Shown: positions 33,196-54,283 of the stretch, piece by piece
How the letters are laid out: each line of letters starts with the position of its first letter
How positions within the stretch are numbered: the stretch's first letter is position 1
IMG/VR virus record: IMGVR_UViG_3300048834_001011
Span: 1 to 56,829 of that record
Reading direction: 5' to 3' (one strand)
From: a virus
Length of the DNA stretch: 56,829 nt
The notes under the pieces: model-generated
The model's input: the letters and a program-made list of their open reading frames with translations, nothing else
The model's database searches: none
Told to the model about the DNA's origin: nothing
Position numbers and translations under genes: made by a program

Positions 33196-33274
33196 TCTAA
33201 GCCATGTCCAAAGGGCCGGGCGCGTTACTATTTACGTCGGAGCGCGGACGCGGGTTCGATTCCGGGTTCCACCA
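33196..33274 (+). pseudogene. ssrA: ssrA (tmRNA) 3'-end-like fragment
   Basis: The stretch CTAAGCCATGT (about 33196-33206) and the T-arm GCGGACGCGGGTTCGATTCC (33244-33263) followed by TCCACCACCA recall the last 80 nt of proteobacterial tmRNA, where CTAAGCATGT precedes a GGACGCGGGTTC T-arm and a CCA end. The T-stem is imperfect and no upstream tmRNA body with a tag frame is visible. I read it as a displaced 3' end left by integration at ssrA. A terminator-like hairpin follows, as after genuine ssrA genes. Confidence 0.5.
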
Positions 33275-33349
33275 CCACCTACAAGGGCTCGGATAGTCTC
33301 CGGGCCCTTTCTCTTGCCTGAAATCCCCGCGCCACGCGGGGTTCCGGCC
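33268..33349 (+). repeat. Left att-like direct repeat with terminator
   Basis: It begins TCCACCACCA and continues through ACAAGGGCTCGGATAGTCTC. The last 69 nt match 53572-53640 with three differences. It contains a GGGCTCGG/CCGGGCCC hairpin followed by T-rich sequence (33285-33313), the type of terminator found after ssrA, and a CCCCGC/GCGGGG hairpin (33325-33341). It lies just beyond the 3' end of the recombination operon, the usual place for an attachment site. Confidence 0.65.
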
Positions 33350-33520
33350 GATGGGCTTGCGGATGCCATCCTGCCGCTAGGCTCCAAAACCGGCGTTTTT
33401 CGGGCGTTTTTCCCGCCCAGAGTCGTCTCTGTCTCTGTTTTGCTTGCGGGTAGTCGCAGCCACAAGCCTTCAAAATCAACCACTTACGCGCCCTGGTTCG
33501 CTGTCAACCGCGCCCGCCAG

Positions 33521-33976
33521 TCAAGTATCGAACCGCGCCACGACCGCACGTTGCGCCGTCCAGTCCACCGGCAACGGGTTCCGCTGGAACCACAGCAGGC
33601 TCATACAGCGGGGCTGCTGCCCGGCATAGATCGCCTTCACGATGTCCGGCTCCAGCAGCGTCAGGCGCAGCAGTTCGTTGACCGTGGAATGGTGCAAGCC
33701 TTCGCGCTTGGCGATCTCACTGCCGGTTTCGACCACGCCGTCGTCGAGCAATTGCTGCCAGTAGAACGCCCGTGACAGCGCCGTCAGCAAGGGCTGGTCG
33801 TGCACGGCGGCCGTCTTGGCCTGCACCTGCGCCACAGCAGGCCGCACCACCACGGCCCGCCCGCCGCGCTTTCTGATCTTGATCGGGATGAAGGTCGTGA
33901 GCCGGATTTCGTCGCCGTCGCGCCGCTCGCGCTTTTCCGCCAACCCGGTGGCCTCGATCTTGGGTTTGTTCTTCAC
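33521..33976 (-). CDS. Recombinase-associated HTH-like accessory protein
   Basis: A 151-residue basic protein overlapping the recombinase stop (ATGA). The N-terminal half is Lys/Arg rich (TTFIPIKIRKRGGRAVVVRP). The C-terminal half has an HTH-like segment, GSEIAKREGLHHSTVNELLR, followed by LTLLEPDIVKAIYAGQQPR, a ParB/recombinase-accessory-like pattern. A clearly homologous gene lies at 54284-54736 beside the second recombinase fragment. Conserved pairing suggests it helps the serine recombinase bind or choose direction; this is inference. It is the last gene before the att-like repeat. Confidence 0.68.
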   Translation of the reverse strand: MKNKPKIEATGLAEKRERRDGDEIRLTTFIPIKIRKRGGRAVVVRPAVAQVQAKTAAVHDQPLLTALSRAFYWQQLLDDGVVETGSEIAKREGLHHSTVNELLRLTLLEPDIVKAIYAGQQPRCMSLLWFQRNPLPVDWTAQRAVVARFDT

Positions 33977-35307
33977 ACCGCCTCCGCTTCCAGTTCCTGC
34001 AGTTCCGCGCCGATGGTGCCGGGCAGCAAATCCATGGCCAGTTCCTGCCAGCCGAGGTCACGCCAGATGATTTCCAGCCCGGCATCACCCAGCACCACCC
34101 GCTCGATCAGCAACTGCGCCAGCCGCCGCTGCTCGGCGGGATAGAGCGTGGGCCACATCGCCGCGAGGTTGCGCATCGGCAGCACCACCTGGGGCTCGTC
34201 CATGTCAGGCCGGATGACGTGCATCCGATCCACGACCATCTGCACGATGTGCGGGGCCTGCAGCGCCATCACGATCTGCTCGACAACCAGCGATTCGATC
34301 GGTTCGGCGGGCAACGACCCGTGCCGACTGGCCCACGCACCCATGCGCCGATGCAACACCGGCGTGTAGTAGCAGTACCGTTTGCCCTTCTTGTTGGTGT
34401 AGGTCGGCATCAGCTTCTCGCCGTCGTCGGTGAACAGCAGCCCCGACAGCAAGGGTTCGACCTCGCCGCGCGCCACGCGCTTGCGTTGCCGTGCTTCCGT
34501 TTCGATCAGCGCGTGAACGGCATCCCACTGCGCCTGCGTGATGAGGGCCTGATGCTCGCCGGGGTAGCTCTGGCCCCGGTGATTGATCTCGCCCAGGTAC
34601 ATCCGGTTGTGCAGCAGCTTGTACATCGTCTGCTTGGTCAGCGGCTTGCCCACCTTGCTCAACAGCCCTTCGGTGGCGTAGGTTTTGGCCATCGTCGTGG
34701 TGGAGCCGACGTTCACGAAATCGTCGAAGATGCGCCGCACCAGCGCCGCTTCCTTCTCGTTGACGACGAGCTTGCGCTCGACCACGTCGTAGCCCAGCGG
34801 TAGCGGTCCGCCCATCCACATTCCTTTCTTCTTCGACGCCGCGATCTTGTCGCGGATGCGCTCGCCGGTGACCTCGCGCTCGAACTGCGCAAAGGACAGC
34901 AGGACGTTGAGCATCAGACGCCCCATCGAGGTGGTGGTGTTGAACTGCTGCGTCACCGACACGAACGACACGCCGCGCCGGTCGAACACCTCGACCATCC
35001 GCGCAAAGTCGGATAACGAGCGCGAGAGCCGGTCGATCTTGTAGACCACCACGACGTCCACCTTGCCGTGCTCGATGTCGGCAAGCAGGCGGCGCAACGC
35101 AGGCCGCTCCATATTGCCGCCCGAGTAGCCGCCATCCTCGAAGTGGTCGCCGACCGGAATCCAACCTTCGGCACGCTGGCTGTGGATGTAGGCGCGGCCT
35201 GCCTCGCGCTGTGCATCGATGGAATTGAAGGACTGGTCAAGGCGTTCGTCGCTGGATACGCGGCAATAGACGGCGCAGCGTTTCGGGTGCACGAGCGGCA
35301 GGTTCAT
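33973..35307 (-). CDS. Large serine recombinase (site-specific integrase)
   Basis: A 444-residue serine recombinase from ATG 35307, overlapping the DUF2924 stop. The N-terminal resolvase domain has YCRVSSDERLDQSFNSIDAQ with nucleophile Ser18 and KIDRLSRS near residue 88. The recombinase domain (about 170-300) includes ITQAQWDAVHAL. A zinc-ribbon-like segment follows (LLSGLLFTDDGEKLMPTYTN) but lacks the usual CxxC cysteines. It should carry out att x att integration without host homology. The upstream frame to 35424 lies inside DUF2924 and is not used. A fragment of a relative remains at 54733-54882. Confidence 0.9.
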   Translation of the reverse strand: MNLPLVHPKRCAVYCRVSSDERLDQSFNSIDAQREAGRAYIHSQRAEGWIPVGDHFEDGGYSGGNMERPALRRLLADIEHGKVDVVVVYKIDRLSRSLSDFARMVEVFDRRGVSFVSVTQQFNTTTSMGRLMLNVLLSFAQFEREVTGERIRDKIAASKKKGMWMGGPLPLGYDVVERKLVVNEKEAALVRRIFDDFVNVGSTTTMAKTYATEGLLSKVGKPLTKQTMYKLLHNRMYLGEINHRGQSYPGEHQALITQAQWDAVHALIETEARQRKRVARGEVEPLLSGLLFTDDGEKLMPTYTNKKGKRYCYYTPVLHRRMGAWASRHGSLPAEPIESLVVEQIVMALQAPHIVQMVVDRMHVIRPDMDEPQVVLPMRNLAAMWPTLYPAEQRRLAQLLIERVVLGDAGLEIIWRDLGWQELAMDLLPGTIGAELQELEAEAV

Positions 35308-35786
35308 CGCACACCCGCCTTCTGGCCGCGCAGGCCGAAAAATCGCGGCCCGTTCCACTGCACGCCCGTGATATGCCGAGCCACCGCCGACAGGCTGCGA
35401 AACGTCTTGCCTGCGTACTCGCATTCACCATCCGGTGTGACGACGACGCGATGCTCGCGTTCGTCCCATTCGCGGATCAGCACCGTGCCGGGCATCAGGT
35501 GCTGCTGGCGGCTGTCACCCGCAACCGGGTCCAGCCGGTGCTTGATCTTGGAATGCGCGGCACCGGCTTCGACCAGATGGCGGCGAATGCCGGTCGGCAC
35601 CGCGCCGTAGGCCATCTCCTGAATCCGGTAGGCCAGCCGGGATTCGAGGAAGGGGCGATTGATGTGCTTGGGCCGCCGGGGGAAGTGTTGATCCCACAGC
35701 GCCCACAGTTCGGCCATCGGCAACGCGGGCAAAACCGCGATCTGCGCCGACACGGTGCCGACGCCCGTGTTGGGGTTTCTGGTCAT
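35304..35786 (-). CDS. DUF2924 protein, recombinase partner
   Basis: A 160-residue DUF2924 protein. Family features are LWDQHFPRRPKHINRPFLES and RIQEMAYGAVPTGIRRHL in the helical N-terminus, and GTVLIREWDEREHRVVV plus YAGKTFRSLSAVARHITGVQWNGPRFFGL at the C-terminus, a small DNA-binding-like module. DUF2924 genes are regularly found directly in front of serine recombinases of this type. The start is ATG 35786 with GGAG about ten bases before it, and the end overlaps the recombinase start. It probably assists recombination. Confidence 0.82.
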   Translation of the reverse strand: MTRNPNTGVGTVSAQIAVLPALPMAELWALWDQHFPRRPKHINRPFLESRLAYRIQEMAYGAVPTGIRRHLVEAGAAHSKIKHRLDPVAGDSRQQHLMPGTVLIREWDEREHRVVVTPDGECEYAGKTFRSLSAVARHITGVQWNGPRFFGLRGQKAGVR

Positions 35787-36258: not shown

Positions 36259-36437
36259 GGGATGACCTTCAGTTCCAGGATGGGATCGGGTTGAACGGAT
36301 ACCGGTTTGCGCGATGCCTTTCGCGCTTGGCACCGGTGGGCCTCACGCGGCATGGGCGGAGTCGGACTGGCGGACACGACCAAGTTCCAGTCCGAGGCGG
36401 ACGGCGGATATGCCACGACTGCCCATGAATCACGCAC
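36255..36437 (-). CDS. Small overlapping ORF linking two operon genes
   Basis: A 60-residue frame from GTG 36437 to the TGA at 36257-36255. Its start overlaps the end of the coiled-coil gene and its stop overlaps the next gene's GTG start, the tiling expected of a genuine operon gene. The sequence (VVAYPPSASDWNLVVSASPT; KASRKPVSVQPDPILELKVI) is Pro/Ser rich. The SD is weak and it has no recognised family, so it may be only the gap between genes. Confidence 0.42.
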   Translation of the reverse strand: MRDSWAVVAYPPSASDWNLVVSASPTPPMPREAHRCQARKASRKPVSVQPDPILELKVIP

Positions 36438-37275
36438 CTGGCATTTCCGACGCCAGCTTCGCGCGGGCGGCTTCGATGTACTCGTGCGGAATATCGATCT
36501 CGTACTTGCTTTCGCGGTGACTGCGGTAGCCACAGGCGTGATCCGCGACGGAGGCGCGGGCCAGCGCGTCATAGAGGTGGTGCAACTGCTCGTAGAGCTC
36601 GATCTTGGCAACCGTGGCTTGGGCGTGCTCGAACGAGCGTTCGGCATCTCGAAGCTGATTTGGGATGGCGGCGATATCGATATCGAGTGCCTGCACCTTG
36701 CCGGTGACGTTCTCCAGCGTGGCGCGCGCCACACGCAGTTCGACATCGAGTTTCGTCAGTGCGTCGGGCAAGACGAACTCGCCCTCGGCAGCCGCCATCG
36801 TTTCGCTGGCGGACAGGGTCTCAGCGGCGATGCGCTGCTCCAGTTCGCCGATACGTTTCTGCAGCTTGGCGATGAGGCTGGAATGCTGCTCGCGATTGGT
36901 CTGAAGGGAGTTGCGACGACGACGTAGTTCGATGATGACTGTGCGTGCGCTATCCAGCTTGACCGGCGCTTCGATGATGTGGCGCAGTTCGTTGAGCTTG
37001 GTTTTGAGCGGGCTGAGCTTGCGCTCCAGGTCACCAGCGCGGTTCTGGGCTGCACTGGAAGCCAGCCGCGCACGGCGCTCCTGCTCCGAGACGGAATGCT
37101 GGTTGCCGCGTTGCTCCAGTTCGAGGGCGTGTTTCGCCTTGGCTTCGGCATCGGCCTTCGCTTCGTCGGCTGCGGCCTGCGTTTCTTCGAGTCGCTGCTT
37201 GACCTCGGCGAACTCGGTCTTGATGCGCTCGTAGTAGCCGGTGGTGGTCTTCTTGCTGAAGGGATTGAATTTCAT
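36430..37275 (-). CDS. Coiled-coil protein of integration operon
   Basis: A 281-residue protein, start ATG 37275 with GGAG eight bases upstream. From residue 14 to about 240 it is almost entirely coiled coil (TEFAEVKQRLEETQAAADEA; LRRRRNSLQTNREQHSSLIA), with a short ordered C-terminus (YEQLHHLYDALARASVADHA). No enzymatic motif is visible. Such proteins are often found near recombinases in integrative elements and may be structural or DNA-bridging. It is part of the leftward seven-gene operon. Confidence 0.62.
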   Translation of the reverse strand: MKFNPFSKKTTTGYYERIKTEFAEVKQRLEETQAAADEAKADAEAKAKHALELEQRGNQHSVSEQERRARLASSAAQNRAGDLERKLSPLKTKLNELRHIIEAPVKLDSARTVIIELRRRRNSLQTNREQHSSLIAKLQKRIGELEQRIAAETLSASETMAAAEGEFVLPDALTKLDVELRVARATLENVTGKVQALDIDIAAIPNQLRDAERSFEHAQATVAKIELYEQLHHLYDALARASVADHACGYRSHRESKYEIDIPHEYIEAARAKLASEMPGA

Positions 37276-38002: not shown

Positions 38003-38230
38003 ATGAACACCATCGAACATCCGGGCCTGCTCACACCACGCCAATTGGCGGCCCGCTGGGGCATGAGCGAAAAGACCCTCGAGCGCTGGCGCACGCTGGG
38101 CACGGGCCCGATGTACCTGAAGCTCGGCAGCCGCGTGATGTATCCGCTGACCTCCATCGCGGAACACGAGCAGGGCCGGATGCGCCGCTGCACGGCAGGC
38201 CAAGAACTGTCCCAGTTCCAACACTGCTGA
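38003..38230 (+). CDS. AlpA-like helix-turn-helix regulator
   Basis: A 75-residue MerR/AlpA-type DNA-binding protein with the winged-helix pattern LLTPRQLAARWGMSEKTLER, ending LGSRVMYPLTSIAEHEQGRM. An AAGGAAG motif ends about five bases before ATG 38003. In phages, satellites and integrative elements such proteins act as excisionase or activator of the integration or replication operon. Its stop and the next gene's ATG overlap as TGATG, so it is co-translated with the primase-helicase, which suggests it activates element replication or excision. Confidence 0.75.
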   Translation: MNTIEHPGLLTPRQLAARWGMSEKTLERWRTLGTGPMYLKLGSRVMYPLTSIAEHEQGRMRRCTAGQELSQFQHC

Positions 38231-40368
38231 TGTCCTCGATGCAGACGGCCTCGGCGATCAGCACGACAGCGGTCGCGTATCCGTGGTTCGACTTCAACGA
38301 TGCGGTCGCCGTCGAGCCGCGCCTGGGGAAGGAGGACATCCGTGCCCGGCTGATCGAGCAACTGGAATCGGCGCTGGCCTACCTGCTGCCGCGCGGCAAG
38401 CGACGTGGCGCGCAATTTGTCGTCGGCAATGTGCAGGGTGATGCGGGCGACAGCCTTGTTGTCGATCTCGATGGCGCAAAGCGCGGCCTGTGGCTGGACT
38501 TCGCCACCGGCGAATCCGGTGATGCGCTCGCTCTGTGGGCCACCGTGTGCGGCTTCATCCTTCCCCAGCAGTTTGATGCGCTGCTGGAGGACATCGGTCA
38601 CTGGCTGGTGGTGCCGCGTGTCGTGGTGCCGATCACGGTGCCGTCGAGCGCGCCGCACGATGAGCTTGGCCCCGCCACCGCCAAGTGGGACTACCACGAT
38701 GCCAGCGGCGCGCTGCTGGCCTGCGTTTACCGCTATGACCCGCCTGGAGGCAAGCAGTACCGCCCGTGGGATGTGAAAACACGCTCGATGCGGATGCCGG
38801 AGCCGCGTCCGCTCTACAACCTACCTGCCATCGCCGCCAGCAACGATGTCGTACTGGTCGAGGGTGAAAAATGCGCCGATGCCTTGATGCACCTCGGCAT
38901 CACGGCCACCACCGCAATGGGCGGTGCGGCTACCGCCATCGCGAAGACCGACTGGATGCCACTGGCCGGGAAGACGGTCGTCATCTGGCCTGACCACGAC
39001 GAGGCCGGATCGCGCTACGCCGATGCCGTGATTACGAGGTTGCGGCAGATCGGTGCGAAGGTACGGCGCGTGACCGTGCCTCAGGACAAGCCCAAGAAGT
39101 GGGATGCCGCCGACGCGGTGGCCGAAGGCCTGGATGTGTCGGCGCTGCTGCGCTCGTCCGCGCCGGTCGCCGATGACCTCCAGCCTCTGGAGACCATCCA
39201 GATCTCGCAGTGGCGTGCGTTGGATCGCTTCACCGGCCACCCCCAAGCCCGGCGCTGGCTGGTCGAAGGCGTGTTTCCGCAGGCGCAGGCCGCGCTGGTG
39301 GCCGCAGCAGGCGGTGTCGGTAAATCCTTCCTGCTGCTGGCCTTGGCGCGCGAGGTCGCTGCCTTCGATGGCACCAAAGACCATGCACCGATGGTGTTCG
39401 GCAGTGCATTGGCAGGCCATGGCGTGGCGATTTACATCACCGCCGAGGACGATGCCATCGAGGTGCACAACCGCCTGAACGCCCTGGGCCCGATTCCTGA
39501 CCGGCTCTACGTGCTGCCGCTGCCCGATGCCGGTGGCGCGCAGCCGCTGTTTGCACCCGACCCGGCCACACGCGGCCCGGCCACGACGGCAGCCTGGCTC
39601 GAACTGGAACGGCAACTCCGAGCGATGGCCGGGCTGCGGCTGGTGGTGCTCGATCCCCTGCAACCGCTGTGCGCGCTCGATCTCAACGTGCCCGAGAACG
39701 CGCAGTTCGTCTGCTCACGCCTGGCTGCGCTGGCGGCCCGCACCGGCGCATCGGTGATCGTGTCGCACCACTTCGCCAAACGTGAGGCGACCACACCGGA
39801 GCAGGCGCGCGAGGCGATTCGCGGCACGGGCGGACTGGTGGACGGCGTGCGGTCGGTGTACGCGTTGTGGCAGCCCAAGGAGGAACAGGCCCGCAGGCTG
39901 TGCAAGACCTTGGGCGAGCCCTTCGAGCGCGGGCGCGTGGTGCTGGGTGGCGTGGTCAAGGCCAACGGGCAGGCCGACCTGCACGTCACGACCTTCCTGC
40001 GCGATGCGCGCGGGCTGCTGGTGGATCGCAACCAGGACCTTCGGCGCACGGCGCAGCCGGACATCGAACTGCTCCCTGCATTGAAGGCCGCCATCGCCCG
40101 TGCGGCTGCCGCAGGTCAGCCCTACACCAAGACCGGCGGCAACGGCATCTACGAGCGCCGCCACGAACTGCCGGAAGACTTCCAGCGCATCGGCAAGCAT
40201 CGGCTGACCGAATGGGTCAGCGCACTGCTTGACCGCGAGGAACTGGTGATGGCGATGGCAGAAGGCTCCAAGCTGGTGAAGTGGCTGGACGTGCCCAATG
40301 GGCCCGTCGCCAACGGCGCGGCGCAGTTCGTGACCGGGCACCTGGGGCGCTCGTCCGCTGGCCGATGA
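38230..40368 (+). CDS. TOPRIM/AAA primase-helicase for element replication
   Basis: A 712-residue protein starting at ATG 38230 in TGATG overlap with the regulator. Motifs are a TOPRIM-like VVLVEGEKCADAL (about 214-226) and WPDHDEAGSRYADAV, then a RepA/AAA_25-type ATPase with Walker A AAGGVGKSFLLLALAR and Walker B-like LRLVVLDPLQPLC, followed by VIVSHHFAKRE, where the His is typical. The C-terminal 150 residues have a KRE-rich helical end. This layout matches phage/satellite replication proteins that open an origin and prime synthesis. Just downstream lie repeated motifs resembling an origin. Confidence 0.82.
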   Translation: MSSMQTASAISTTAVAYPWFDFNDAVAVEPRLGKEDIRARLIEQLESALAYLLPRGKRRGAQFVVGNVQGDAGDSLVVDLDGAKRGLWLDFATGESGDALALWATVCGFILPQQFDALLEDIGHWLVVPRVVVPITVPSSAPHDELGPATAKWDYHDASGALLACVYRYDPPGGKQYRPWDVKTRSMRMPEPRPLYNLPAIAASNDVVLVEGEKCADALMHLGITATTAMGGAATAIAKTDWMPLAGKTVVIWPDHDEAGSRYADAVITRLRQIGAKVRRVTVPQDKPKKWDAADAVAEGLDVSALLRSSAPVADDLQPLETIQISQWRALDRFTGHPQARRWLVEGVFPQAQAALVAAAGGVGKSFLLLALAREVAAFDGTKDHAPMVFGSALAGHGVAIYITAEDDAIEVHNRLNALGPIPDRLYVLPLPDAGGAQPLFAPDPATRGPATTAAWLELERQLRAMAGLRLVVLDPLQPLCALDLNVPENAQFVCSRLAALAARTGASVIVSHHFAKREATTPEQAREAIRGTGGLVDGVRSVYALWQPKEEQARRLCKTLGEPFERGRVVLGGVVKANGQADLHVTTFLRDARGLLVDRNQDLRRTAQPDIELLPALKAAIARAAAAGQPYTKTGGNGIYERRHELPEDFQRIGKHRLTEWVSALLDREELVMAMAEGSKLVKWLDVPNGPVANGAAQFVTGHLGRSSAGR

Positions 40369-40382
40369 TGAGCATCGAGGGA

Positions 40383-40412
40383 GGTGAGCATTCCCGATGC
40401 TCACCCTCTCTT
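40383..40412 (+). terminator. Terminator after primase-helicase gene
   Basis: GGTGAGCAT (40383-40391) is a perfect inverted copy of ATGCTCACC (40397-40405) around a 5-nt loop, followed by CTCTCTTT. It lies 15 nt after the stop of the primase-helicase gene. Confidence 0.5.
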
Positions 40413-40434
40413 TAGAGAGTATTCACCGGGAACT

Positions 40435-40608
40435 GGGAATGATTTGTAGATCGTTGATCTGCAAAGGAAATCGCTGAAACAATCGTTCCCACTTCACCCC
40501 TGGGAACGATTCGACCCGGAAACGATTTTTGTCCGCGCCCGCACTGGATTTAATCGTTCCCACTCGGTCAATCGTTCCCAGCCGGGAACTGGGAAGCCGG
40601 GAACGATT
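40435..40608. repeat. Iteron-like cluster of AATCGTTCCC
   Basis: The decamer AATCGTTCCC occurs exactly at 40481-40490, 40552-40561 and 40570-40579, and inverted (GGGAACGATT) at 40502-40511 and 40599-40608. Close variants are at 40435-40444 and 40518-40527. Five exact copies within 130 nt cannot be chance. Such arrays directly after a replication gene are characteristic of initiator-binding sites (iterons). Confidence 0.65.
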
Positions 40609-41285
40609 GGCACGGCATGGCGGATCATTGACCGTGAGGGTGGTGACGATGGTGACGGTCACCGCCTATTGTTATGGTCGGCGCACGCAACCACGCCCCA
40701 GGCGAAAGGGGTCCTTCCTGGCGATATTCCAATACGGGGGGCGCGAGCGCTGCATCTCGCCACCGACAGGCCACGAAACCAGGTTACCGCCCGAGGTTAC
40801 CGGTTACCACCCGCCGACGATGCAAACCGTGGCCATCGGTGCAAACCGCAAACCCCTGCAAACCTTGTTTTGGGTTCGCACGGTAGCGAAGCGTGGCGCT
40901 CACGCCTCCCGTATGGATCACGCTGAAGAAGGACCCATTTTGCCTCGGGGATGGCCGTCACGCGACCGGCAAAACGGTGATCGGCGCAAACGCAGCAACG
41001 GCGCAGGCCTCCGGCCATTTCAATGCCCGATGGCGTCCAATCGGTGAGCGTGGGGGAGTGCTGGCGCAGGGGGAGGCGCTTTGGTGCCGGTCGCGCGCCG
41101 GAAAACGGCCGACGAGAGAAACCCAACACTGGCGCGGGTTTGGCGCGGCTTCGCCGCCTGAAACAGGCAAATCGGCTGACGTGTCGGAGGCGCGATCCCA
41201 AGGGTGTGAGCCGCGCTCACAACCCTGCGCCAGCGCCGAAGGGTATCCAGATACTGGACACCCCGGTGGCGCAATCAGCAGATGG

Positions 41286-41651
41286 TCAGGCCGCTTCCTG
41301 TTCCTCGACGAGGCCGCAGTGAATCACGAAGCCTGTCAGGTAAGGCAGGCCGCGCGGGATGCCGTACTGCTTGCTGGTCTGGCGTCCAATCGTCCAGCCC
41401 ATCCACTTCTGCGTGGCGGCGATGATGGCCTGCGGCAGCGCGCGGCCGTCGTAGATAGCGTTGTGGACGTCGTCCGCGAAGTGGCGTCCGTGGCGGCTGT
41501 CGAGGAAGGCCCGGATGTTGTCGAAGTCTTCGCCCGTGGCGTCGGCGATGGCGGTCATGGCCAGCGGCCAGGCAGTGGCGGCGTGTTCGTTCATCGCGCC
41601 CCAGAAGCCCCGCGTTTCGTTGTGGGTGGCCGGGATGGTGATGTTGCTCAT
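41286..41651 (-). CDS. Conserved hypothetical protein of integrative elements
   Basis: A 121-residue protein, MSNITIPATHNETRGFWGAM, with GGAG about ten bases upstream of ATG 41651. It is a mixed alpha/beta protein with FDNIRAFLDSRHGRHFADDV and a C-terminal PRGLPYLTGFVIHCGLVEEQ. No catalytic motif is visible. Its length, start signal and surrounding genes (DUF3489, primase) suggest a real accessory gene of the element. Unknown function. Confidence 0.6.
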   Translation of the reverse strand: MSNITIPATHNETRGFWGAMNEHAATAWPLAMTAIADATGEDFDNIRAFLDSRHGRHFADDVHNAIYDGRALPQAIIAATQKWMGWTIGRQTSKQYGIPRGLPYLTGFVIHCGLVEEQEAA

Positions 41652-41738: not shown

Positions 41739-42293
41739 TCACGCCACGCGGTAGATGCGCTTGCCGCCGGGCTGCTTGTCGGACACCAGCGTCAGGCCCA
41801 GTTTCTTCTTGAACGCCCCGGCGAATGCGCCGCGTACCGTGTGCGCCTGCCAGCCAGTGGCATCGCAAATCTGGCGGACGGTCGCGCCTTCAGGCCGTTG
41901 CAGCATCCGCACCACCTCGGCCTGCTTGCTGTGCGCCCGCGTGCGCGGTTTGGCGCACGTCGCTTCGGCCGCGGCAACGGCGTCTTCCAGTTCCGCATCG
42001 TTCGGCGCGCCTTCGGCATTGGCGATGATCTGGCCGAGCTTGGCCTCGAACTGACCAATGCGCTTCTTGCCGATGCCGGGGCTCGGGACGCCAAGCGCGT
42101 CATAGCCTGCGGCATTGACCCTCCACAGCGTGCCAAGCTGCCCGATGAGTCCGCGGTTGGCAAGGCCTGCCAGCACCTTCTGGCGCGCGCCGCCGTGGAT
42201 GTTGGACGGGAACCATTCGACGCGTCCATCGGCGTGGTCGAGGGCGTGGGCGAGGATGGCGCGCTGGGTCGGGGTCAATGGGGCTGCTGTCAT
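41739..42293 (-). CDS. DUF3489 protein, HTH-containing
   Basis: A 184-residue protein starting at ATG 42293 (MTAAPLTPTQRAILAHALDH), preceded by GAAGGAG. The frame opens five codons earlier at 42308, which has no SD. The C-terminal half has the DUF3489 pattern KQAEVVRMLQRPEGATVRQI followed by CDATGWQAHTVRGAFAGAFK, a winged-helix-like fold ending GLTLVSDKQPGGKRIYRVA. Such proteins occur widely in prophages and integrative elements. It lies divergently from the excisionase-like gene at 42455. It may be regulatory. Confidence 0.72.
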   Translation of the reverse strand: MTAAPLTPTQRAILAHALDHADGRVEWFPSNIHGGARQKVLAGLANRGLIGQLGTLWRVNAAGYDALGVPSPGIGKKRIGQFEAKLGQIIANAEGAPNDAELEDAVAAAEATCAKPRTRAHSKQAEVVRMLQRPEGATVRQICDATGWQAHTVRGAFAGAFKKKLGLTLVSDKQPGGKRIYRVA

Positions 42294-42454
42294 CGAGTGC
42301 TCCTTCAAGGATGGTGATGTGGGGCTCGATGAACGCGCTGTTTGGCCCGAAAGCCAAGCGTTTCATGGCTGGCGCAGAGATTCCCTGTTAGATTGGAGTC
42401 TTTGCGATTGAATGCGACTTTGTGCCATCCAATTGCCTACAACTGGAGCATGCC
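42294..42454. promoter_or_regulatory. Intergenic control region between DUF3489 and restriction cargo
   Basis: This 161-nt region lies between the leftward DUF3489 gene and the rightward restriction genes and must carry the promoter for the latter. I see no perfect sigma-70 site or long palindrome. TTGCGATTGAATGCGAC at about 42401-42417 contains a short imperfect direct repeat (TGCGA) that may be a regulator site. Confidence 0.3.
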
Positions 42455-42664
42455 GTGACCGAGCCTTGGGTATCCGTCGAACAGATCGCCGAACACTTGG
42501 GCGTCAAACGCGATTCCATCTACCGCTGGATCGACCGCAAGCACCTGCCCGCGCACCGCGTGGGACGCTTGTGGAAGTTCAAGGTGACTGAGGTTGACGA
42601 CTGGGTGCGCGCCGGTGGTGCGGATGACGCCACTGGCAATGAGGCACCCACTGCAGCGCCTTGA
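42455..42664 (+). CDS. Excisionase-type HTH protein leading restriction operon
   Basis: A 69-residue protein from GTG 42455 (TGGAG six bases upstream); an earlier in-frame GTG at 42422 has no SD. The sequence SVEQIAEHLGVKRDSIYRWI then HLPAHRVGRLWKFKVTEVDD is the typical MerR-like excisionase/HTH_17 domain. Such small proteins are commonly encoded immediately upstream of type I-like methylase genes and may control them. It is 35 nt before the methylase. Confidence 0.72.
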   Translation: MTEPWVSVEQIAEHLGVKRDSIYRWIDRKHLPAHRVGRLWKFKVTEVDDWVRAGGADDATGNEAPTAAP

Positions 42665-42699: not shown

Positions 42700-45600
42700 A
42701 TGCTGACTCAAGACAATCTCTCGGACTTGCTGGTTGCCCTCGGTTTCGAAAGGAAAGGCGCGATTCATCGCAAGGAATTCGGCGCAGCCGTGCTGGAGGT
42801 GAACGTCACCAAGAAGGAGATCACCTACCCCGAAGCAGCGGGATTGGTCATCAATGAGCGCCAAACCTGCAACTTCGAAGCCAACGAAAATTTCGTCGTG
42901 CTGGAATGCGTGTGCCGTCTCCTGGAAAAGGGATACAAGCCAGAGCACATCGAGCTGGAACCCAAGTGGAAGTTGGGGCGCGGTGCCAGCGGCGGGCGTG
43001 CCGACATCCTGATCAAGGACAACGATGGCCGCCCATTGCTGATCATCGAATGCAAAACGGCGGGCGGCGAGTTCAAGCGCGCATGGAACAAGACCCTGCA
43101 AGACGGCGACCAACTATTCAGCTACGCACAGCAAATCAGCGAAACCCAGTTCCTGTGCCTGTACACCTCGGACTTGGATGCAGGCACGGTCAGCTACACC
43201 AGCCACATCATCGCGCACCGCGACAACGAGAGGTATCTGGCTGACAACCCGCTGTTCAAGAGCTTCAAGTCAGTCACTGACGTCAAAGAACGCCATGCTG
43301 TCTGGCGGGACACCTACAAGCTCGACTACACCACCAAGGGCATTTTTGAAGAAAACATTCAGCCCTATCACATCGGCAAAGACAAATATTCGCTGGCCGA
43401 CCTGCACGCCATTTCGGCCAGCGATCAGCAGAAGAAATACCACGAGTTCGCCACCATCCTGCGCCAGCACAATGTGTCGGGCCGTGAAAACGCCTTCGAC
43501 AAGCTGGTTAATCTGTTTCTGTGCAAGCTGGTGGATGAAATTGAAAATCCATCCGACCTGAAGGTTTACTGGAAGGGTGTGGCCTACGACACCCATTTCG
43601 ATCTGATGGATCGCCTGCAGCAGTTGTATCAGGCAGGCATGGGCAAGTTTCTCGGGGAAGACATCACCTACATCAACCAGGGTGACGTCAACAACGCGCT
43701 ACGCTTCATCAAGCAGAACCCGGATGCCACGCAGCGTGCGGTGTGGAATCTGTTCATTCAGCAGAAGTTTTTTACCAACAACGATTTCTCGCTGATCGAT
43801 GTTCACAACGAAAAGCTGTTTTATCAAAACGCCGAGGTGCTGCTGAAAATCCTGCAGATGTGGCAAGACATTCGGCTGACCGATCCCCACGGCCACAACC
43901 AGTTTCTCGGCGATATGTTCGAGGGCTTTCTTGACCAAGGTGTCAAGCAGAGCGAAGGGCAGTTCTTCACGCCCATGCCCATCTGCCGCTTCATCATGAT
44001 GAGCCTGCCGCTGGCCACGCTCGTCCAGCGCAGCGCCACTCCGCCCAAGGCCATCGACTACGCCTGCGGCGCAGGCCACTTTCTCACCGAGCTGGCCTTG
44101 CAGCTCAAGCCATTGGTGGAAACGCACCAGCCAGCAGCAGACCTTGCGGCGTATCACAAGGCCTTGTATGGCATCGAGAAAGAGTACCGCCTTTCCAAGG
44201 TCGCCAAGGTGTCGGCCTTCATGTATGGACAGCAGGGGATCAACATCTGCTACGGCGACGGCCTGATCAACCAGCACGAGGCATTTCCGGACATCAAGGA
44301 CGGAAGTTTTGACCTGCTGGTCGCCAACCCGCCTTATAGCGTGCGCGGCTTTCTGGAGACGCTGCCCGAGGAAGAACGCAAGGCTTACACCCTCACCGAG
44401 ACCATCAACGATCTCGAAACCTCCAACAGCATCGAAACCTTTTTCATCGAACGCGCCAAGCAGCTGCTGCGCGCCGACGGCGTTGCCGCGATCATCCTGC
44501 CGTCCAGCATCCTGTCCAACGGCGGCAGCGCCTACATTCGCACCCGTGAAATCCTGATCCAGTATTTCGACATCGTCGCCATTGCTGAATTCGGCAGCGG
44601 CACCTTCGGCAAAACGGGCACCAACACCGTCACCCTGTTCCTGCGGCGCAAGAAGACCGCGCCGGACACCGCTGCGCATTACCGCGAGCGCGTAGAGGAA
44701 TGGTTCAAGGGCTGCGATGCCAGCAAGCGCAAGCAGGTCATCTACAAGGATGAGCATTTGATCGCCCGCTACGCGGCGCACATCAATGTGCCGCTGGACG
44801 ATTACAAGACCCTGCTCAAGGCCGATCCGGATGGGGCCTGGACCGCCCATCTGGAGGCCGTCTACCTCGAGAAATTCAACACCAGCACCGAGATCACCAA
44901 TCTCTACAAGGCCAAATGGTTCAAGGCCTTGAAGCCTGAAGATCAAGATGCCGAAGTCAACAAGCGCTATCTAGCCTTTGTGCAAGCCATTGAGCGTGAC
45001 AAGCTTTACCACTTCGTCATGGCCTGCGACCAGCCCAACCCGGTGCTGATCATTCGCAGCCCTACCGAAACCAAGGCCATCAAGCAGTTCCTCGGCTACG
45101 ACTGGAGTTCCGCCAAGGGCGATGAGGGCATCAAGCTCATCAAGGATGCCCACGGGCGGCACCTCACGCCGTTGTATGACGAAACCAATCGAGATAACAC
45201 CGGGAAGCTCAATTTCAGCATTGCGGCGAATTTCAATGGCACGCTGGCGGCAGTCCCAGCGGCATTGCAAGACGTGGCACGCAAAGCCCCGCTGGTGGAT
45301 ATGTTGGACTTTTCGCGTGCCATCTTTGAAAAGCAGCTCAACTTGGCGATCAAAGGTGGCGTAAAGGTCGTATCCAAGTGGCCTATCGCACCACTGAATA
45401 GCTTGGCCGACATACGAAAAGGAACTTCAATCACCCAGAAGAAAGCTGTGCCGGGGGCCTATAAAGTTGTCGCGGGAGGGATGACTCATGCCTACACGCA
45501 CAATGTATTCAATCGGGCAGCCAACACTATCACCGTCAGCGCCTCAGGTGCCAGTGCTGGCTATGTGGCCTTCTGGCGGGAGCCAATTTTTGCATCCGAC

Positions 45601-46461
45601 TGTACGACGGTGCGTGGAGCTGATGATGAGCATACGGAATACCTCTACCATTTTCTGAAAAGTCGGCAGAGTGAAATTCAGGCGACTTCAAGTGGTGCAG
45701 CGCAGCCTCATGTTTATCCAAAGGATCTTGAGGCCCTACAGATTCCACAGCCTGACCCGACCACACTGAAGAACATTGTTTCTGAGTGCAGATCGATCGA
45801 GGATCAAGTCAACTCTTCGCGCGACACGTTTCAGAATGCCTTGGCCCGCATTGACGCGAAAGTCGCCAACATTTATGGGTCTTCAGCTGCACATTCAGAA
45901 ATCGACAAACTCGCCATCGACATTCAGTACGGCCTGAACGAAGCCATGAATGAGGGTGGTGTTGGCTACAAGATCTTCCGTATGAACGAGATCATCCGAG
46001 GCCAAATGGTGGACAACGGCAGCATGAAGTGCGCTGATATCAGTGCCGAGGAGTTTGCCAAGTACAAGCTCAACAAGGGCGACTTACTTTTCAATCGCAC
46101 CAATAGCATCGAGCACGTCGGCAAGACCGGACTGTTCGATCTGGATGGCGAGTACTGTTTTGCGTCCTACCTCGTGCGCGTGGTGCCCGACACAGGGCAG
46201 GTATTGCCGAAATTCCTTGAAAAGATGATGAATTCAGCGGCCTTCCAAACAGAAGCGAAAGGCAAGGCCTCCAAGTCCATCAATCAGGCCAATATCAACG
46301 CGACGATCATGCGCAATATCAAGGTGCCCGTGCCGTCCCTGCCCGAACAGAAAAAGTTTGTCGCCGGCGTCGAAGCCCTGGAGAAACAGATTGCCGAAGC
46401 CCAGGCGGTGATCGATGGCGCAGCCGCCCGTAAGCAGGCCATCCTGCAGAAGTATCTGTAA
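42700..46461 (+). CDS. Type IIG-like nuclease-methylase-specificity fusion enzyme
   Basis: A 1253-residue single-chain restriction-modification enzyme. The N-terminal PD-(D/E)xK nuclease has D102 in ADILIKDN and E117-C-K119 in LLIIECKTAGG. A helical region follows, then an N6-adenine methylase with motif I DYACGAGHFLTEL (about 451) and NPPYSVRGFLE (about 541). The C-terminal 400 residues are two HsdS-like target-recognition domains separated by coiled coils (AEAQAVIDGAAARKQAILQK at the end). There is no translocase domain, so this is a type IIG-like rather than type I enzyme. The first target-recognition region is AT-richer (about 45360-45960), hinting at specificity exchange. Confidence 0.85.
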   Translation: MLTQDNLSDLLVALGFERKGAIHRKEFGAAVLEVNVTKKEITYPEAAGLVINERQTCNFEANENFVVLECVCRLLEKGYKPEHIELEPKWKLGRGASGGRADILIKDNDGRPLLIIECKTAGGEFKRAWNKTLQDGDQLFSYAQQISETQFLCLYTSDLDAGTVSYTSHIIAHRDNERYLADNPLFKSFKSVTDVKERHAVWRDTYKLDYTTKGIFEENIQPYHIGKDKYSLADLHAISASDQQKKYHEFATILRQHNVSGRENAFDKLVNLFLCKLVDEIENPSDLKVYWKGVAYDTHFDLMDRLQQLYQAGMGKFLGEDITYINQGDVNNALRFIKQNPDATQRAVWNLFIQQKFFTNNDFSLIDVHNEKLFYQNAEVLLKILQMWQDIRLTDPHGHNQFLGDMFEGFLDQGVKQSEGQFFTPMPICRFIMMSLPLATLVQRSATPPKAIDYACGAGHFLTELALQLKPLVETHQPAADLAAYHKALYGIEKEYRLSKVAKVSAFMYGQQGINICYGDGLINQHEAFPDIKDGSFDLLVANPPYSVRGFLETLPEEERKAYTLTETINDLETSNSIETFFIERAKQLLRADGVAAIILPSSILSNGGSAYIRTREILIQYFDIVAIAEFGSGTFGKTGTNTVTLFLRRKKTAPDTAAHYRERVEEWFKGCDASKRKQVIYKDEHLIARYAAHINVPLDDYKTLLKADPDGAWTAHLEAVYLEKFNTSTEITNLYKAKWFKALKPEDQDAEVNKRYLAFVQAIERDKLYHFVMACDQPNPVLIIRSPTETKAIKQFLGYDWSSAKGDEGIKLIKDAHGRHLTPLYDETNRDNTGKLNFSIAANFNGTLAAVPAALQDVARKAPLVDMLDFSRAIFEKQLNLAIKGGVKVVSKWPIAPLNSLADIRKGTSITQKKAVPGAYKVVAGGMTHAYTHNVFNRAANTITVSASGASAGYVAFWREPIFASDCTTVRGADDEHTEYLYHFLKSRQSEIQATSSGAAQPHVYPKDLEALQIPQPDPTTLKNIVSECRSIEDQVNSSRDTFQNALARIDAKVANIYGSSAAHSEIDKLAIDIQYGLNEAMNEGGVGYKIFRMNEIIRGQMVDNGSMKCADISAEEFAKYKLNKGDLLFNRTNSIEHVGKTGLFDLDGEYCFASYLVRVVPDTGQVLPKFLEKMMNSAAFQTEAKGKASKSINQANINATIMRNIKVPVPSLPEQKKFVAGVEALEKQIAEAQAVIDGAAARKQAILQKYL

Positions 46462-46473
46462 GGAGCGGTGACG

Positions 46474-48981
46474 ATGAGCGACTTCCAAAAGCAATACGCC
46501 CTGTGGGATGAGTTCCTGAGCGTCTGGCCCGCATCACGGCTGGCTACGATGACTCTGGACGACTACAGCCAGGCGGGGTCGAAGGACAGCTTTACCTACT
46601 GGATCGAATCGCGCCTGGATGAGCTGGGCAGCATTTGGGGAGGCTCGTCGTTCAAGTTCGGCGTGTTCTCGCGCAAAAATCTCGAAGCCCGCGAGAGTGC
46701 GGAAAACCGCAGCTACTCCGATACCCACGGCTGGTACTCCTCACTGGGTGCCACGGCCGAAGAAGCCTTTGAAAAGGTGCGTGGCTACATTGGGCAGGTC
46801 GCTGCGTTGGCCGCAAACGGCGATCTGGACGGCATTGAGGCTTTCGATCACTTGGGCGAAGCCACCAAGTGGAAGATAGCCTTCCACTACCAAAACCGGC
46901 AAGCGCCGGTGATCGTGGACATCTTCAAAAAGGCACCGCTGGCTGTCTTTGTCGGCAGCACGGCCAGCCAGTCGATGGCCGCTTTGCAGAAGGCCGCGTT
47001 GGCCAAGCGGCCCGAGGGGCTGGGTATTCTGGAATTCGGGCGGCAGGTGTGGGAGGCGTGGAGCCAGAAGAATCTGGCGGTCTGGAAGCTCTCGCACGGC
47101 AACCCGCCTAACTTCACCGACACCGAGCGCCAGCAGTATCTGGATGGGCAATGGGCGGTGATGCACCGTGACACCGGGAAGGAGCAAGGCAAGAAATTTG
47201 CCGAGGTACCGGTGGGCGCCTTGTTCTTCCTGTGCCACGGCAACAGCCCGCAGCGCATCGGCCAATTCACGTCGGCGGCCATGCCCTGCGCCAAGGGCGA
47301 TGGCTGGCTGCAGCGCAGCTACCGCGTGCTCAAGCCCGCGCAGCGCACCGACCGCTACACCGCCAACTCTAAAAATTGGTCACCACAAGGCAATTCGACC
47401 TTCTGGCAGGTGGGCGCGCACGATCTGCCGGAATTCGAATCCACCTTGCTCAAGCCGTTTTTTGGCACCGATCTGGCCGAATTGGCAGCGCTGGCCGGTG
47501 AGCCGATTGAGGCGGCCAGCTTGGGCGATGGCGTGGCACCGCCTCCGGTCGCCACACCGGGCACTGGCAACCCGCGCAACGCTACCTGCTTCAACCGCAT
47601 TTACTACGGCCCGCCCGGCACCGGCAAAACCTACACGCTGATGCAACTGCTCAAGCGTGATTACGAGCCGCAGGCCGCGTCCATCTCCACCGAAGAATGG
47701 CGCACGCAGGTCATTGCCGAGAAGGTGGCCGTGCTGAAGTGGTGGGAAGGGGCCGCTGCCGCACTGTATGACCTGGGCGGCAAGGCCAAGGTGGCGGACA
47801 TTGCGGAGCACCGGTTCATTCAGGCCATGACCGCCGCCAACGGCTCGAACCGCAGTGTGCGGCAAACGCTGTGGCGCACCCTGCAGACCCACACGGTCGA
47901 GGAGTCCACCACGGTCAAGCTGAAAAAGCGCCTGAGCCCACCCGTGTTCGACAAGACGGCAGATTCGGTGTGGCAGTTCGCCGGTGATTGGCAGGATGCC
48001 TGCGCAGATTTAATCAGCTTGGTCGATCAGCTCAACGCAGGCCAACAGGACACCGCCACGGTGCAGCGCTACAGCTTTGTGACCTTCCATCAGTCCTATG
48101 GCTACGAGGAATTCGTCGAGGGCTTGCGCCCCGTGCTGAACGGCGACGCCGAAGCGGGCGAAGTGGAATACGAAATTCGCCCCGGCGCGTTCAAGGAGTT
48201 GTGCCGCAAGGCACGGCAGGCGCCCGATCAGCGCTTTGCGATGGTCATCGACGAAATCAACCGGGGCAACATCAGCAAGATTTTTGGTGAGCTGATCACC
48301 TTGATCGAACCGGATAAGCGCGATCCCCTCGATGGCGGCAAGCCGCCCATCGAACTGACGCTGGCCTATTCGGGCGAGAAGTTTTCGGTGCCTGCCAATG
48401 TGGACATCATCGGCACGATGAACACGGCGGATCGTTCACTGGCCTTGCTGGATACGGCGCTGCGCCGCCGCTTCGATTTCGTGCCGCTGTTGCCCGACAC
48501 GCGCGCCGTGAAAGTGCCCGATGAGCCGCACAGCGCACCGCTGGCGGGCTTGGTGGTGAGCACGGACGCAGGCGAGATCGATGTGCGCCGGTTGCTGGAA
48601 CGCATCAACGAACGTATCGAGGCGCTGTACGACCGCGACCATTGCATCGGTCACGCCTACTTCACCCACCTGTGGAGTACGACGGATGGCGCGCAGCGGT
48701 TCGAAGCCCTGGCTGATACCTTCCGCAATCGCGTGTTGCCCCTACTGGAGGAATACTTCTTCGAGGACTGGCGCAAGATTCGACTGGTACTGGGCGACAA
48801 CCAGAAGCCCGATGCCGCCCAGTTCATCACCGAGAGCGATGCCCACGAGCAGGCATTGAATGACCTGTTTGGCGACGACCACGGGCTCGACAGCTACACC
48901 ACCCAGCGCCGCCATCAACTCCAGGCATCGGCATTCGCCAACCCAGCCAGCTACCTCGGCATCTACCAGTCCCTGGCTTGA
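46474..48981 (+). CDS. mcrB: McrB-like AAA+ subunit with PUA/EVE-like N-terminus
   Basis: An 835-residue protein from ATG 46474, AAGGAG eight bases upstream. The C-terminal half is McrB: Walker A YYGPPGTGKTYTLMQLLKR (about 377), FVTFHQSYGYEEFVEGLRP, Walker B VIDEINRGNISKIFGELI, and GTMNTADRSLALLDTALRRR near 647. The N-terminal half lacks the usual McrB DUF3578 reader; VGALFFLCHGNSPQRIGQFT and TANSKNWSPQGNSTFWQVG have an EVE/PUA-like pattern, a modified-base reader. It should recognise modified DNA, power translocation and call the McrC nuclease. It follows the type IIG gene by 12 nt. Confidence 0.85.
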   Translation: MSDFQKQYALWDEFLSVWPASRLATMTLDDYSQAGSKDSFTYWIESRLDELGSIWGGSSFKFGVFSRKNLEARESAENRSYSDTHGWYSSLGATAEEAFEKVRGYIGQVAALAANGDLDGIEAFDHLGEATKWKIAFHYQNRQAPVIVDIFKKAPLAVFVGSTASQSMAALQKAALAKRPEGLGILEFGRQVWEAWSQKNLAVWKLSHGNPPNFTDTERQQYLDGQWAVMHRDTGKEQGKKFAEVPVGALFFLCHGNSPQRIGQFTSAAMPCAKGDGWLQRSYRVLKPAQRTDRYTANSKNWSPQGNSTFWQVGAHDLPEFESTLLKPFFGTDLAELAALAGEPIEAASLGDGVAPPPVATPGTGNPRNATCFNRIYYGPPGTGKTYTLMQLLKRDYEPQAASISTEEWRTQVIAEKVAVLKWWEGAAAALYDLGGKAKVADIAEHRFIQAMTAANGSNRSVRQTLWRTLQTHTVEESTTVKLKKRLSPPVFDKTADSVWQFAGDWQDACADLISLVDQLNAGQQDTATVQRYSFVTFHQSYGYEEFVEGLRPVLNGDAEAGEVEYEIRPGAFKELCRKARQAPDQRFAMVIDEINRGNISKIFGELITLIEPDKRDPLDGGKPPIELTLAYSGEKFSVPANVDIIGTMNTADRSLALLDTALRRRFDFVPLLPDTRAVKVPDEPHSAPLAGLVVSTDAGEIDVRRLLERINERIEALYDRDHCIGHAYFTHLWSTTDGAQRFEALADTFRNRVLPLLEEYFFEDWRKIRLVLGDNQKPDAAQFITESDAHEQALNDLFGDDHGLDSYTTQRRHQLQASAFANPASYLGIYQSLA

Positions 48982-48990
48982 GGGGGACGA

Positions 48991-50367
48991 ATGGCGCACA
49001 CCCCGATCTACGAATTCGATGCACTGGTGGCTGCCGCCACCGGTGTCACCGATGGCGTGGGGCTGCGCACGGTGCCGCCGCAGGTGTTTGCCTGGCTGGA
49101 AGCGCAGGCGCTGCGCCTGGCCGAGGTGGGTGAAACACCCTGGTTGCGCTTGACTCAGCGGCGTGGGCGACGCGCCGTACAGGTGACCCGTTTCGTCGGA
49201 GTGATACGGACCCCGGATGGCTATCAGATCGAGGTGCTGCCGAAAGTCGGCAAAGCCATTGGTGGGGGCGATGTTGAGGCGCGGCAGTTGCTGATCGAAA
49301 TGCTGCGCTGCCTGGGGGGCTTTCGCCACATCCAGACTGACAGCGCCAAGCTGTTTGCCACCCGCATGCCCTTGCTGGAAGTGTTCATCGCTGAATTCCT
49401 TCGCGCCGTGGAGCATCTCGTCAAACGCGGGCTGCGCAGCGATTACAGGGCGCAGCAAGACAACTTGTTTGCCCTGCGCGGCAAGCTGCAAATGGCGGCA
49501 CACCTGCGGCACAACCTGTGTCGGCGCGACCGTTTCTTTGCCGAGTTCGACGAGTTCTCGCCCAACCGACCGGAGAACCGTTTGCTGCACGCAGCATTGC
49601 GGCGTGTGCTCGCCTGGACGGCCTCGCAGGCCAACCAGCAACTGGCACGCGAGCTGTGCTTCGTGTTTGCCGACGTACCGGCATCGGAACACCCTGCCAC
49701 GGACTTCCAGCGAGTGCGCCTGGATCGGGGCATGGCGCATTACGAGGGGGCGTTGGCGTGGGCACGGCTGATCCTGGAGGATGAATCGCCGCTCACCGGC
49801 GCGGGCGGTCATCATGCGCCGTCCCTGCTGTTTCCGATGGAGGCAGTGTTCGAGGCCTTCGTCGCCAAGCACCTTGCACGGCAACTTGAGCAAGGCTTCG
49901 CGCTGCGCACGCAGGCCCGCAGCCTGTCCTTGGTCAGGCACCTCGAACAGAACTGGTTCCGTCTGAAACCCGATCTGCTGGTGCAGGCGTCGAAGGTCAA
50001 TCGGCTGGTTCTGGACACCAAGTGGAAGCTGATCGATGGCCAGCAGGCCACGGGTTCAGACAAATACGGCCTGGATCAGGGCGACTTCTACCAACTCCAC
50101 GCCTATGGCCAGAACTACCTCGACGGCCAAGGGGACGTGGTGTTGATCTACCCGAAGACGGATGCCTTGAACAAGGCGCTGCCAGTGTTCGAGTTTCCGA
50201 AATCGTCAGGACTGCGGTTGTGGGTGCTGCCGTTCTGCCTGAAGCGGCGTGAGCTCATCCTGCCTGCTTGCGGCAGTCTCGATGGGTGCTTCTCGCGTGG
50301 GCATTCTGCACCGTCAAGCACGGACGCTGCTAGCGATGCCGCTGCTCAAGAAGCGGTCTTGGCATGA
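48991..50367 (+). CDS. mcrC: McrC-like nuclease subunit
   Basis: A 458-residue partner of McrB. Family landmarks are FAEFDEFSPNRPENRLLHAA at about residue 190 and, in the C-terminal third, a PD-(D/E)xK nuclease with RLKPDLLV...RLVLDTKWK (Asp near 326, D-x-K near 340). The nuclease residues all appear intact. The start is ATG 48991, 9 nt after the mcrB stop. The stop overlaps the TOTE-like gene start as ATGA, joining it to this operon. It should cut DNA flanking sites recognised by McrB. Confidence 0.85.
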   Translation: MAHTPIYEFDALVAAATGVTDGVGLRTVPPQVFAWLEAQALRLAEVGETPWLRLTQRRGRRAVQVTRFVGVIRTPDGYQIEVLPKVGKAIGGGDVEARQLLIEMLRCLGGFRHIQTDSAKLFATRMPLLEVFIAEFLRAVEHLVKRGLRSDYRAQQDNLFALRGKLQMAAHLRHNLCRRDRFFAEFDEFSPNRPENRLLHAALRRVLAWTASQANQQLARELCFVFADVPASEHPATDFQRVRLDRGMAHYEGALAWARLILEDESPLTGAGGHHAPSLLFPMEAVFEAFVAKHLARQLEQGFALRTQARSLSLVRHLEQNWFRLKPDLLVQASKVNRLVLDTKWKLIDGQQATGSDKYGLDQGDFYQLHAYGQNYLDGQGDVVLIYPKTDALNKALPVFEFPKSSGLRLWVLPFCLKRRELILPACGSLDGCFSRGHSAPSSTDAASDAAAQEAVLA

Positions 50368-52733: not shown

Positions 52734-52765
52734 TGTCGGTTGGGTAGGGCGTCGGAACAGGCGGG

Positions 52766-52795
52766 TAGACAATCTATGCCACTCGGTGGCACAAT
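52766..52795 (+). promoter_or_regulatory. Promoter with operator palindrome for toxin-antitoxin pair
   Basis: TAGACA (52766-52771) and CACAAT (52790-52795), 18 nt apart, form a plausible sigma-70 promoter. Within the spacer lies the perfect palindrome TGCCAC-tcg-GTGGCA (52777-52791). A repressor bound there would block RNA polymerase, which is how HigBA-type pairs autoregulate. Confidence 0.55.
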
Positions 52796-52802
52796 AGAGC
52801 CG

Positions 52803-53174
52803 ATGACGCGAGTGTTCAAAACTCGCCACTTCCAGCGATGGATGCGCAAGACGGAGCTCACCGATGCCGTCCTGTGCAAGGCCGTTCAGGAGATGGCGGC
52901 CGGCCTGATCGACGCTGACCTCGGCGGCAGCGTGGTGAAGAAACGCGTTGGGCTGGCGGGGCGTGGCAAGCGTGGCGGCGTGCGCACACTGGTCGCCACC
53001 AACAAGGGCAACCGTTGGTTCTTCGTGTTCGGTTTCGAGAAGAACGAACGGGCGAATGTCAGCGACGAGGAACTCGAAGGCTTGCAGACCATCGCCGCCG
53101 ACCTGCTGGCTCGAACAGGCCCGCAACTGGATGAAGCCGTTGCCGACGGCGCTTTGCAGGAGATTTGCCAATGA
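52803..53174 (+). CDS. RelE/HigB-like toxin
   Basis: A 123-residue toxin of the RelE/ParE superfamily (PF06296-like) from ATG 52803. Key segments are RVFKTRHFQRWMRKTELTDA, GSVVKKRVGLAGRGKRGGVR and LVATNKGNRWFFVFGFEKNE. This is the compact beta-sheet RNase with a basic active-site loop that cleaves ribosome-bound mRNA. The upstream frame from 52740 lies in the promoter. The antitoxin start overlaps this stop by four bases (ATGA). It ends the element's cargo and probably stabilises it. Confidence 0.82.
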   Translation: MTRVFKTRHFQRWMRKTELTDAVLCKAVQEMAAGLIDADLGGSVVKKRVGLAGRGKRGGVRTLVATNKGNRWFFVFGFEKNERANVSDEELEGLQTIAADLLARTGPQLDEAVADGALQEICQ

Positions 53175-54257: not shown

Positions 54258-54283
54258 AGCGGGTTGACGGACTGCGGTCCTGG

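Follow-up and report, generated by a model that had tools for sequence, protein, structure and literature searches.

Gram-negative PICIs carry an integrase gene (int), a regulator, a primase-rep gene with an origin, and lambda-like cosQ and cosN (PMC6092414, PMC6739421, PMC9026076). One of them, EcCICFT073, lacks a terminase and has a pair of cos sites, lambda-like in cosQ and cosN and differing in cosB; its cosB is unlike that of the helper, and the protein Rpp redirects TerS (PMC6092414, PMC6739421). The genome record NC_004431 places these cos sites at 1387528 (+) and 1388338 (-), convergent, separated by ~0.8 kb and enclosing a gene that occupies the position of rppA; the orientation comes from that record, the papers' passages being silent on it. 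In other satellites, the PLEs of Vibrio cholerae are mobilised by a large serine recombinase and have ICP1 as helper (PMC6002521), and the cos-SaPIs SaPIbov4 and SaPIbov5 are islands that carry a helper cos (PMC5052747).

The DNA analysed here (the window) is the 56,829-nt IMG/VR virus record IMGVR_UViG_3300048834_001011. It contains a 20.3-kb unit that is bounded at 33.27 and 53.56 kb by direct repeats of CCACCA and carries a serine recombinase, an HTH protein, a primase-helicase, a candidate origin, a pair of cos sites and defence cargo (Table 1). In our reading, to which we give a probability of about 0.77, the region behind the primase gene controls both the replication and the packaging of a 20.3-kb phage satellite, in which the primase would act at iterons, two cos sites would match different helpers, and the part between them could flip at cosN.

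Table 1. Features of the 20.3-kb element, including the candidate origin and the two putative cos sites (window coordinates).
Feature	Position	Strand	Support or remark
Element left end: tmRNA 3'-end-like sequence ending CCACCA, then ACAAGGGCTCGG	33265..33285		Junction common to G001 and G002
Large serine recombinase, CcrB-like but below Ccr cut-off	33973..35424	-	Pfam PF00239/PF07508, NCBIfam, phrog_95 integrase E 4e-102
Coiled-coil protein	36430..37275	-	68% identical in G001 and G002
Small HTH protein, excisionase/AlpA-like	38003..38230	+	phrog_66 E 1e-6; 99%/87% identical in G001/G002
Toprim primase fused to RSF1010 RepA-type helicase	38230..40368	+	Pfam AAA_25, Toprim; phrog_239; PDB 1g8y E 1e-13
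AT-centred palindrome CTCTCTTTAGAGAG, 14 bp, adjoining iterons	40406..40419		Similar palindromes beside relatives' iterons
Seven iterons AATCGTTCCC, both orientations; candidate origin	40435..40608
cos1 cosQ (GGGTCCTTCC)	40709..40718	+	lambda GGGTCCTTTCC; 72 viral contigs
cos1 cosN equivalent (TACGGGGGGCGCGAGCGC)	40733..40750	+
cos1 R repeats GGTTACC x3	40782..40808	+	First starts 42 nt after TACGGGG
cos2 R repeats GGTTTGC x4	40821..40864	-	First starts 42 nt after TACGGGA
cos2 cosN equivalent (TACGGGAGGCGTGAGCGC)	40896..40913	-	G001 has consensus TACGGGGGGCGCGAGCGC here
cos2 cosQ (GGGTCCTTCT)	40927..40936	-
121-aa protein, phrog_8020	41286..41651	-	In phages also near cos and terminase genes
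DUF3489 HTH protein, phrog_10315	41739..42308	-	Homologue just upstream of TerS in phage G403
HTH_17 protein	42422..42664	+
Defence cargo: type IIG R-M, AAA/REase pair, PrimPol-helicase	42700..52733	+
HigBA-like toxin-antitoxin pair, near right end	52740..53497	+	Named from sequence
Element right end (CCACCACCA); start of next, IS-truncated element	53560..53575

Two relatives, G001 (locus L072) and G002 (L073), encode primases 96% and 87% identical to that of the window at the amino acid level, and both carry the unit directly to the right of an intact tmRNA; the element integrates at tmRNA. In G002 the unit occupies 20.53 kb between the tmRNA CCACCA repeats and matches the right-end stretch of the window's element at 91% identity over 977 bp. 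Window positions 53559-54881 are 77% identical to 33268-34124, both being element left ends with the 3' end of the recombinase gene; such elements thus stack in tandem at one site, and because this second left end runs into an IS3 transposase, a third element was once there. To the left, the first 20 kb of the window hold phage late genes, including those for an S49 peptidase and a tape measure. Between ~20.4 and 33 kb, on the minus strand, lies a defence run (PLD-helicase, DUF1156 methylase, DarTG, DUF3780, DUF499), possibly cargo of this left prophage. Within the element's own cargo, the AAA/REase pair may be read as McrBC-like.

The gene order recombinase, HTH, primase-helicase, iterons, cos is that of PICIs. 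Likewise, terminase and a full late-gene set are missing from the elements of the window and G002: no late genes were seen among the ORFs of the complete 20.53-kb unit of G002, and neither the window nor the G002 genome yielded a gpA TerL (PF05876). The gpA TerL of G001 (C106) has no matching cos nearby. Since the element has a large serine recombinase instead of the tyrosine integrase of PICIs, we call it a PICI-like satellite rather than a PICI. It shares this type of recombinase with the PLEs, whose helper is a different one (ICP1), and it differs from SaPIbov4/5, which are Gram-positive and related to a different set of cos phages. The recombinase also raises the possibility of an SCC-like integrative island spread by other means, with the cos sites incidental, as would suit a CcrB-like enzyme and tandem arrays that bear much defence cargo. 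The best CcrB score was, however, 164.5 bits, against a cut-off of 900, so that the enzyme falls outside the Ccr recombinases of SCC cassettes; it also matches the phage integrase phrog_95, and for conserved cos sites no role other than phage packaging is known. We regard such an island as quite improbable.

An initial annotation had read the stretch downstream of the primase-helicase gene as a candidate origin rich in iterons, with three families of short repeats that suggested sites for several replication proteins. For the first family this holds up well. The repeats do follow the gene, whose ORF stops at 40368, and AATCGTTCCC occurs in five exact copies (40481, 40552 and 40570 on the plus strand, 40502 and 40599 on the minus strand) and two one-mismatch copies (40435, 40518). 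Five identical 10-mers in 322 bp exceed local chance, the maximum in shuffled sequence being two (0/300). Conservation in relatives, on whose absence the origin was to be given up, was found: all seven iteron positions are kept in G001 and G002, and 94% of columns are invariant within iterons versus 59% between them. The adjoining palindrome had gone unremarked. AT content peaks at 60% in 40 bp, with no clear AT-rich unwinding element.

The iteron core CGTTCCC recurs right after homologous primase genes in independent lineages: in a Thalassospira group, in the Agarilytica plasmid pSU2 (L254; primase 56% at the amino acid level) and in Rhizobium phage RHph_Y3_1 (L257; 40%), the last with 8 copies versus 0.36 expected; in most of these lineages it is at least 10-fold above local background. 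A plasmid and a phage thereby carry the same iterons behind the same primase-helicase. More distant members of the primase family have other repeats at this place (CGTTGCCA x7, CAGTTTGC x7, CCGTCAGA x4), and no repeats stood out after the primase gene of Wolbachia phage WO. The exact DNA pattern of two iterons had no match in viral contigs, and the region used as a DNA query returned nothing from plasmids and phages. The AATCGTTCCC array, which adjoins the rep gene and is conserved with it, is thus a well-supported candidate iteron origin, and the distribution of its core points to a widespread replicon type. The primase-helicase, whose C-terminal half matches the RSF1010 RepA helicase, would be the initiator that binds these iterons.

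The second and third families call for a different reading. The copies described earlier are present, GGTTACC at 40782, 40795 and 40802 and TGCAAACC at 40821, 40840 and 40857, together with a fourth GCAAACC at 40848 that had been overlooked. As bare words neither is rare (the counts were reached in 11/100 and 12/100 window shuffles, respectively), so it is where they lie and how they are conserved that makes them significant. Both lie between two cosQ-cosN motifs that had also been missed. The interval 40.69-40.95 kb is an imperfect inverted repeat with GGGTCCTTCC-N13-ATACGGGGGG in the left arm and a close variant in the right; both arms align with cosQ and cosN of lambda (NC_001416), giving two convergent cos sites at 40709-40936. 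The first R repeat starts 42 nt after TACGGGR in either site of the window, as it does in both sites of G001, G002 and G314 and in phages that share these R types. A MITE or transposon was rejected as an explanation of the inverted repeat, which occurs at one place per genome and matches phage cos. A literature search for the motif words returned only unrelated texts among the matches listed.

Like these sites, lambda cos has a cosQ of the form GGGTCCTT(T)CC, a cosN core TACGGGG and at least three R repeats at a fixed distance, and the phages that share the site encode a Nu1/gpA-type terminase. The sites described here differ from it in a longer G run, another R sequence and R repeats that all point the same way within a site, whereas lambda R2 is reversed. 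The spacing of cosQ and cosN, a fixed distance to R and, in phages, cognate TerS and TerL genes beside the site are as expected of a lambda-type cos. On these sequence grounds families 2 and 3 are best described as putative R sites, the repeats of cosB to which terminase binds, in a pair of lambda-type cos. The origin reading therefore stands for AATCGTTCCC and is replaced for GGTTACC and TGCAAACC. Because cos2 of the window is altered in both cosQ and cosN (TTCT, GGGAGG), it may be weakened here.

Searches of viral contigs found GGGTCCTTCC-N13-ATACGGGGGG in 72, once each. In nearly all phage loci with at least 6 kb downstream, a gpA-type TerL follows on the same strand, and in most of them a TerS of one family lies upstream of TerL. 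The clear exceptions lacking a downstream gpA TerL are the satellite-type loci L072 and L085; the latter contig carries one cos, of the GGTTTGC type, and its 23.8 kb yielded no gpA terminase. The R repeats after cosN vary among phages (GGTTYGC, GGTTACC, GGTTTCC, GGGAAGCCACC and others), with the first R 42 nt after TACGGGG in the groups close to the window. The TerS DNA-binding domain covaries with the R-site sequence (Mantel r 0.77, 0/5000 permutations), a covariation that is partly phylogenetic, as shared ancestry contributes. Recognition helices and R sites pair as GVSDAAVRKAI with GGTTCGC, GVTDTSVHKAI with GGTTTGC, GVSHPAVMKAI with GGTTACC and GLSRGAIQKAK with GGGAAGCCACC. The GGTTACC pair comes from the one such phage with TerS in view (L211), which a scan for GGTTACC cos sites recovered as a new phage with terminase, along with a cos-like site (L214) and unrelated sequences. 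A single large iteron origin, with all three families as replication-protein sites, would account for repeats that follow a primase-helicase gene and for a first family that by its conservation behaves as an origin. It is nevertheless very improbable, because families 2 and 3 covary with TerS and sit inside cosQ-cosN-R units that are common to phages and there lie upstream of terminase.

The two sites differ in specificity. In the window and in G001, cos1 points rightward with GGTTACC and cos2 leftward with GGTTTGC; G002 has both R types, swapped. The inner 177 bp of G002 are 77% identical to the window when inverted and 63% when aligned directly, and the outer flanks keep their orientation: the inner part is inverted in G002. 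With cosQ and the spacer in place outside the inverted part, the breakpoints lie at cosN. In G314 both R types occur 5 kb apart in divergent orientation. A pair of cos sites is already known from EcCICFT073, which also resembles the element in its order of integrase, regulator, primase-rep with origin, then two facing cos. EcCICFT073, on the other hand, has a tyrosine integrase and a gene between its cos sites, whereas the element has a serine recombinase, and 0.23 kb of gene-free DNA separates its cos sites. What is new is that each of two cosB specificities has its counterpart among the R sites of real phages, while the EcCICFT073 cosB is unlike its helper's.

No Rpp-like packaging-redirection protein was recognised in the element; given this, and with both cosB types matching phages, it is simpler to assume that the element uses the TerS of its helper directly. 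Candidates for an Rpp role are the two proteins encoded next to cos, DUF3489 and phrog_8020. The 121-aa phrog_8020 protein, found beside cos in satellites, is encoded near cos and terminase in many phages (L087/L259-L260, L086, L129, L160), and the DUF3489 protein in several of these; both are perhaps packaging-related.

Phage G403 (IMGVR_UViG_3300002461_000940) has the satellite's early order—recombinase, HTH, primase, cos, phrog_8020, DUF3489—followed by TerS, TerL and late genes. Its recombinase, phrog_8020 and DUF3489 proteins are 52%, 74% and 54% identical to those of the element, and the shared order points to descent of the satellite from this phage family. AcaML1 (JX507079) similarly has primase, cos and phrog_8020 protein in this order, its cos being of the GGTTTCC type; in both phages the primase belongs to the element's family and resembles it over the N-terminal part. 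Unlike the element, both are full phages, in which a single cos goes with TerS, TerL and late genes (in G403 as far as the tail genes, where the reading stopped). The prophage beside the element (1-20 kb) has a tape measure 79-80% identical to that of G403, whose cos carries GGTTTGCA; the neighbouring prophage is therefore of the type predicted to use cos2, and this type is the likely helper class. The assemblies of G001 and G002, possibly incomplete, yielded no cos of a cognate helper. Three element lengths (~61 kb) come close to the 62.7-kb G403 contig, which fits concatemers filling a helper head and may be coincidence.

The resemblance to G403 in gene order and proteins would also suit a decayed prophage that lost terminase and late genes, its cos a relic and the second cos gained by recombination with another phage. 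A visibly broken copy does exist in G166 (L208, C57), where at ~7.8-9.0 kb the primase is broken and the cos mutated. Against decay, a design free of late genes with both cos kept recurs in three elements under selection (26% of third versus 5% of second codon positions differ between the window and G002 primases), and in G314 these two R types recur, differently arranged. We consider decay unlikely.

A phage satellite with its own control segment thus remains the preferred reading. The primase-helicase would probably start replication at the CGTTCCC iterons behind its own gene, and the lambda-type terminase of a helper phage would cut and load the concatemers at one of the two convergent cos. 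Because cos1 (+, GGTTACC) and cos2 (-, GGTTTGC) each match the R sites of a separate phage group, and these groups differ in their TerS helices, each helper would package from its own cos; by this comparison there would be two helper types, with opposite packaging directions. Cuts at both cosN would release an inner fragment whose cohesive ends are alike and which could therefore be re-ligated either way, and the G002 inversion may stem from such re-ligation or from recombination between the cos arms. The full two-way cassette is tentative, and we put it somewhat below even odds: its two cos, of different TerS specificity, would serve two unrelated types of helper that package in opposite directions, and terminase cuts followed by re-ligation would flip it at cosN.

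The element seems to be a small DNA parasite that rides in the particles of other viruses. If the reading is correct, a satellite would widen its helper range through a packaging site of its own rather than a redirecting protein, and the packaged end would be a direct readout of the helper used. The motif GGGTCCTTCC-N13-ATACGGGGGG with R at +42 would serve as a signature for lambda-type cos and cos satellites far from E. coli, and it pairs R sites with TerS recognition helices.
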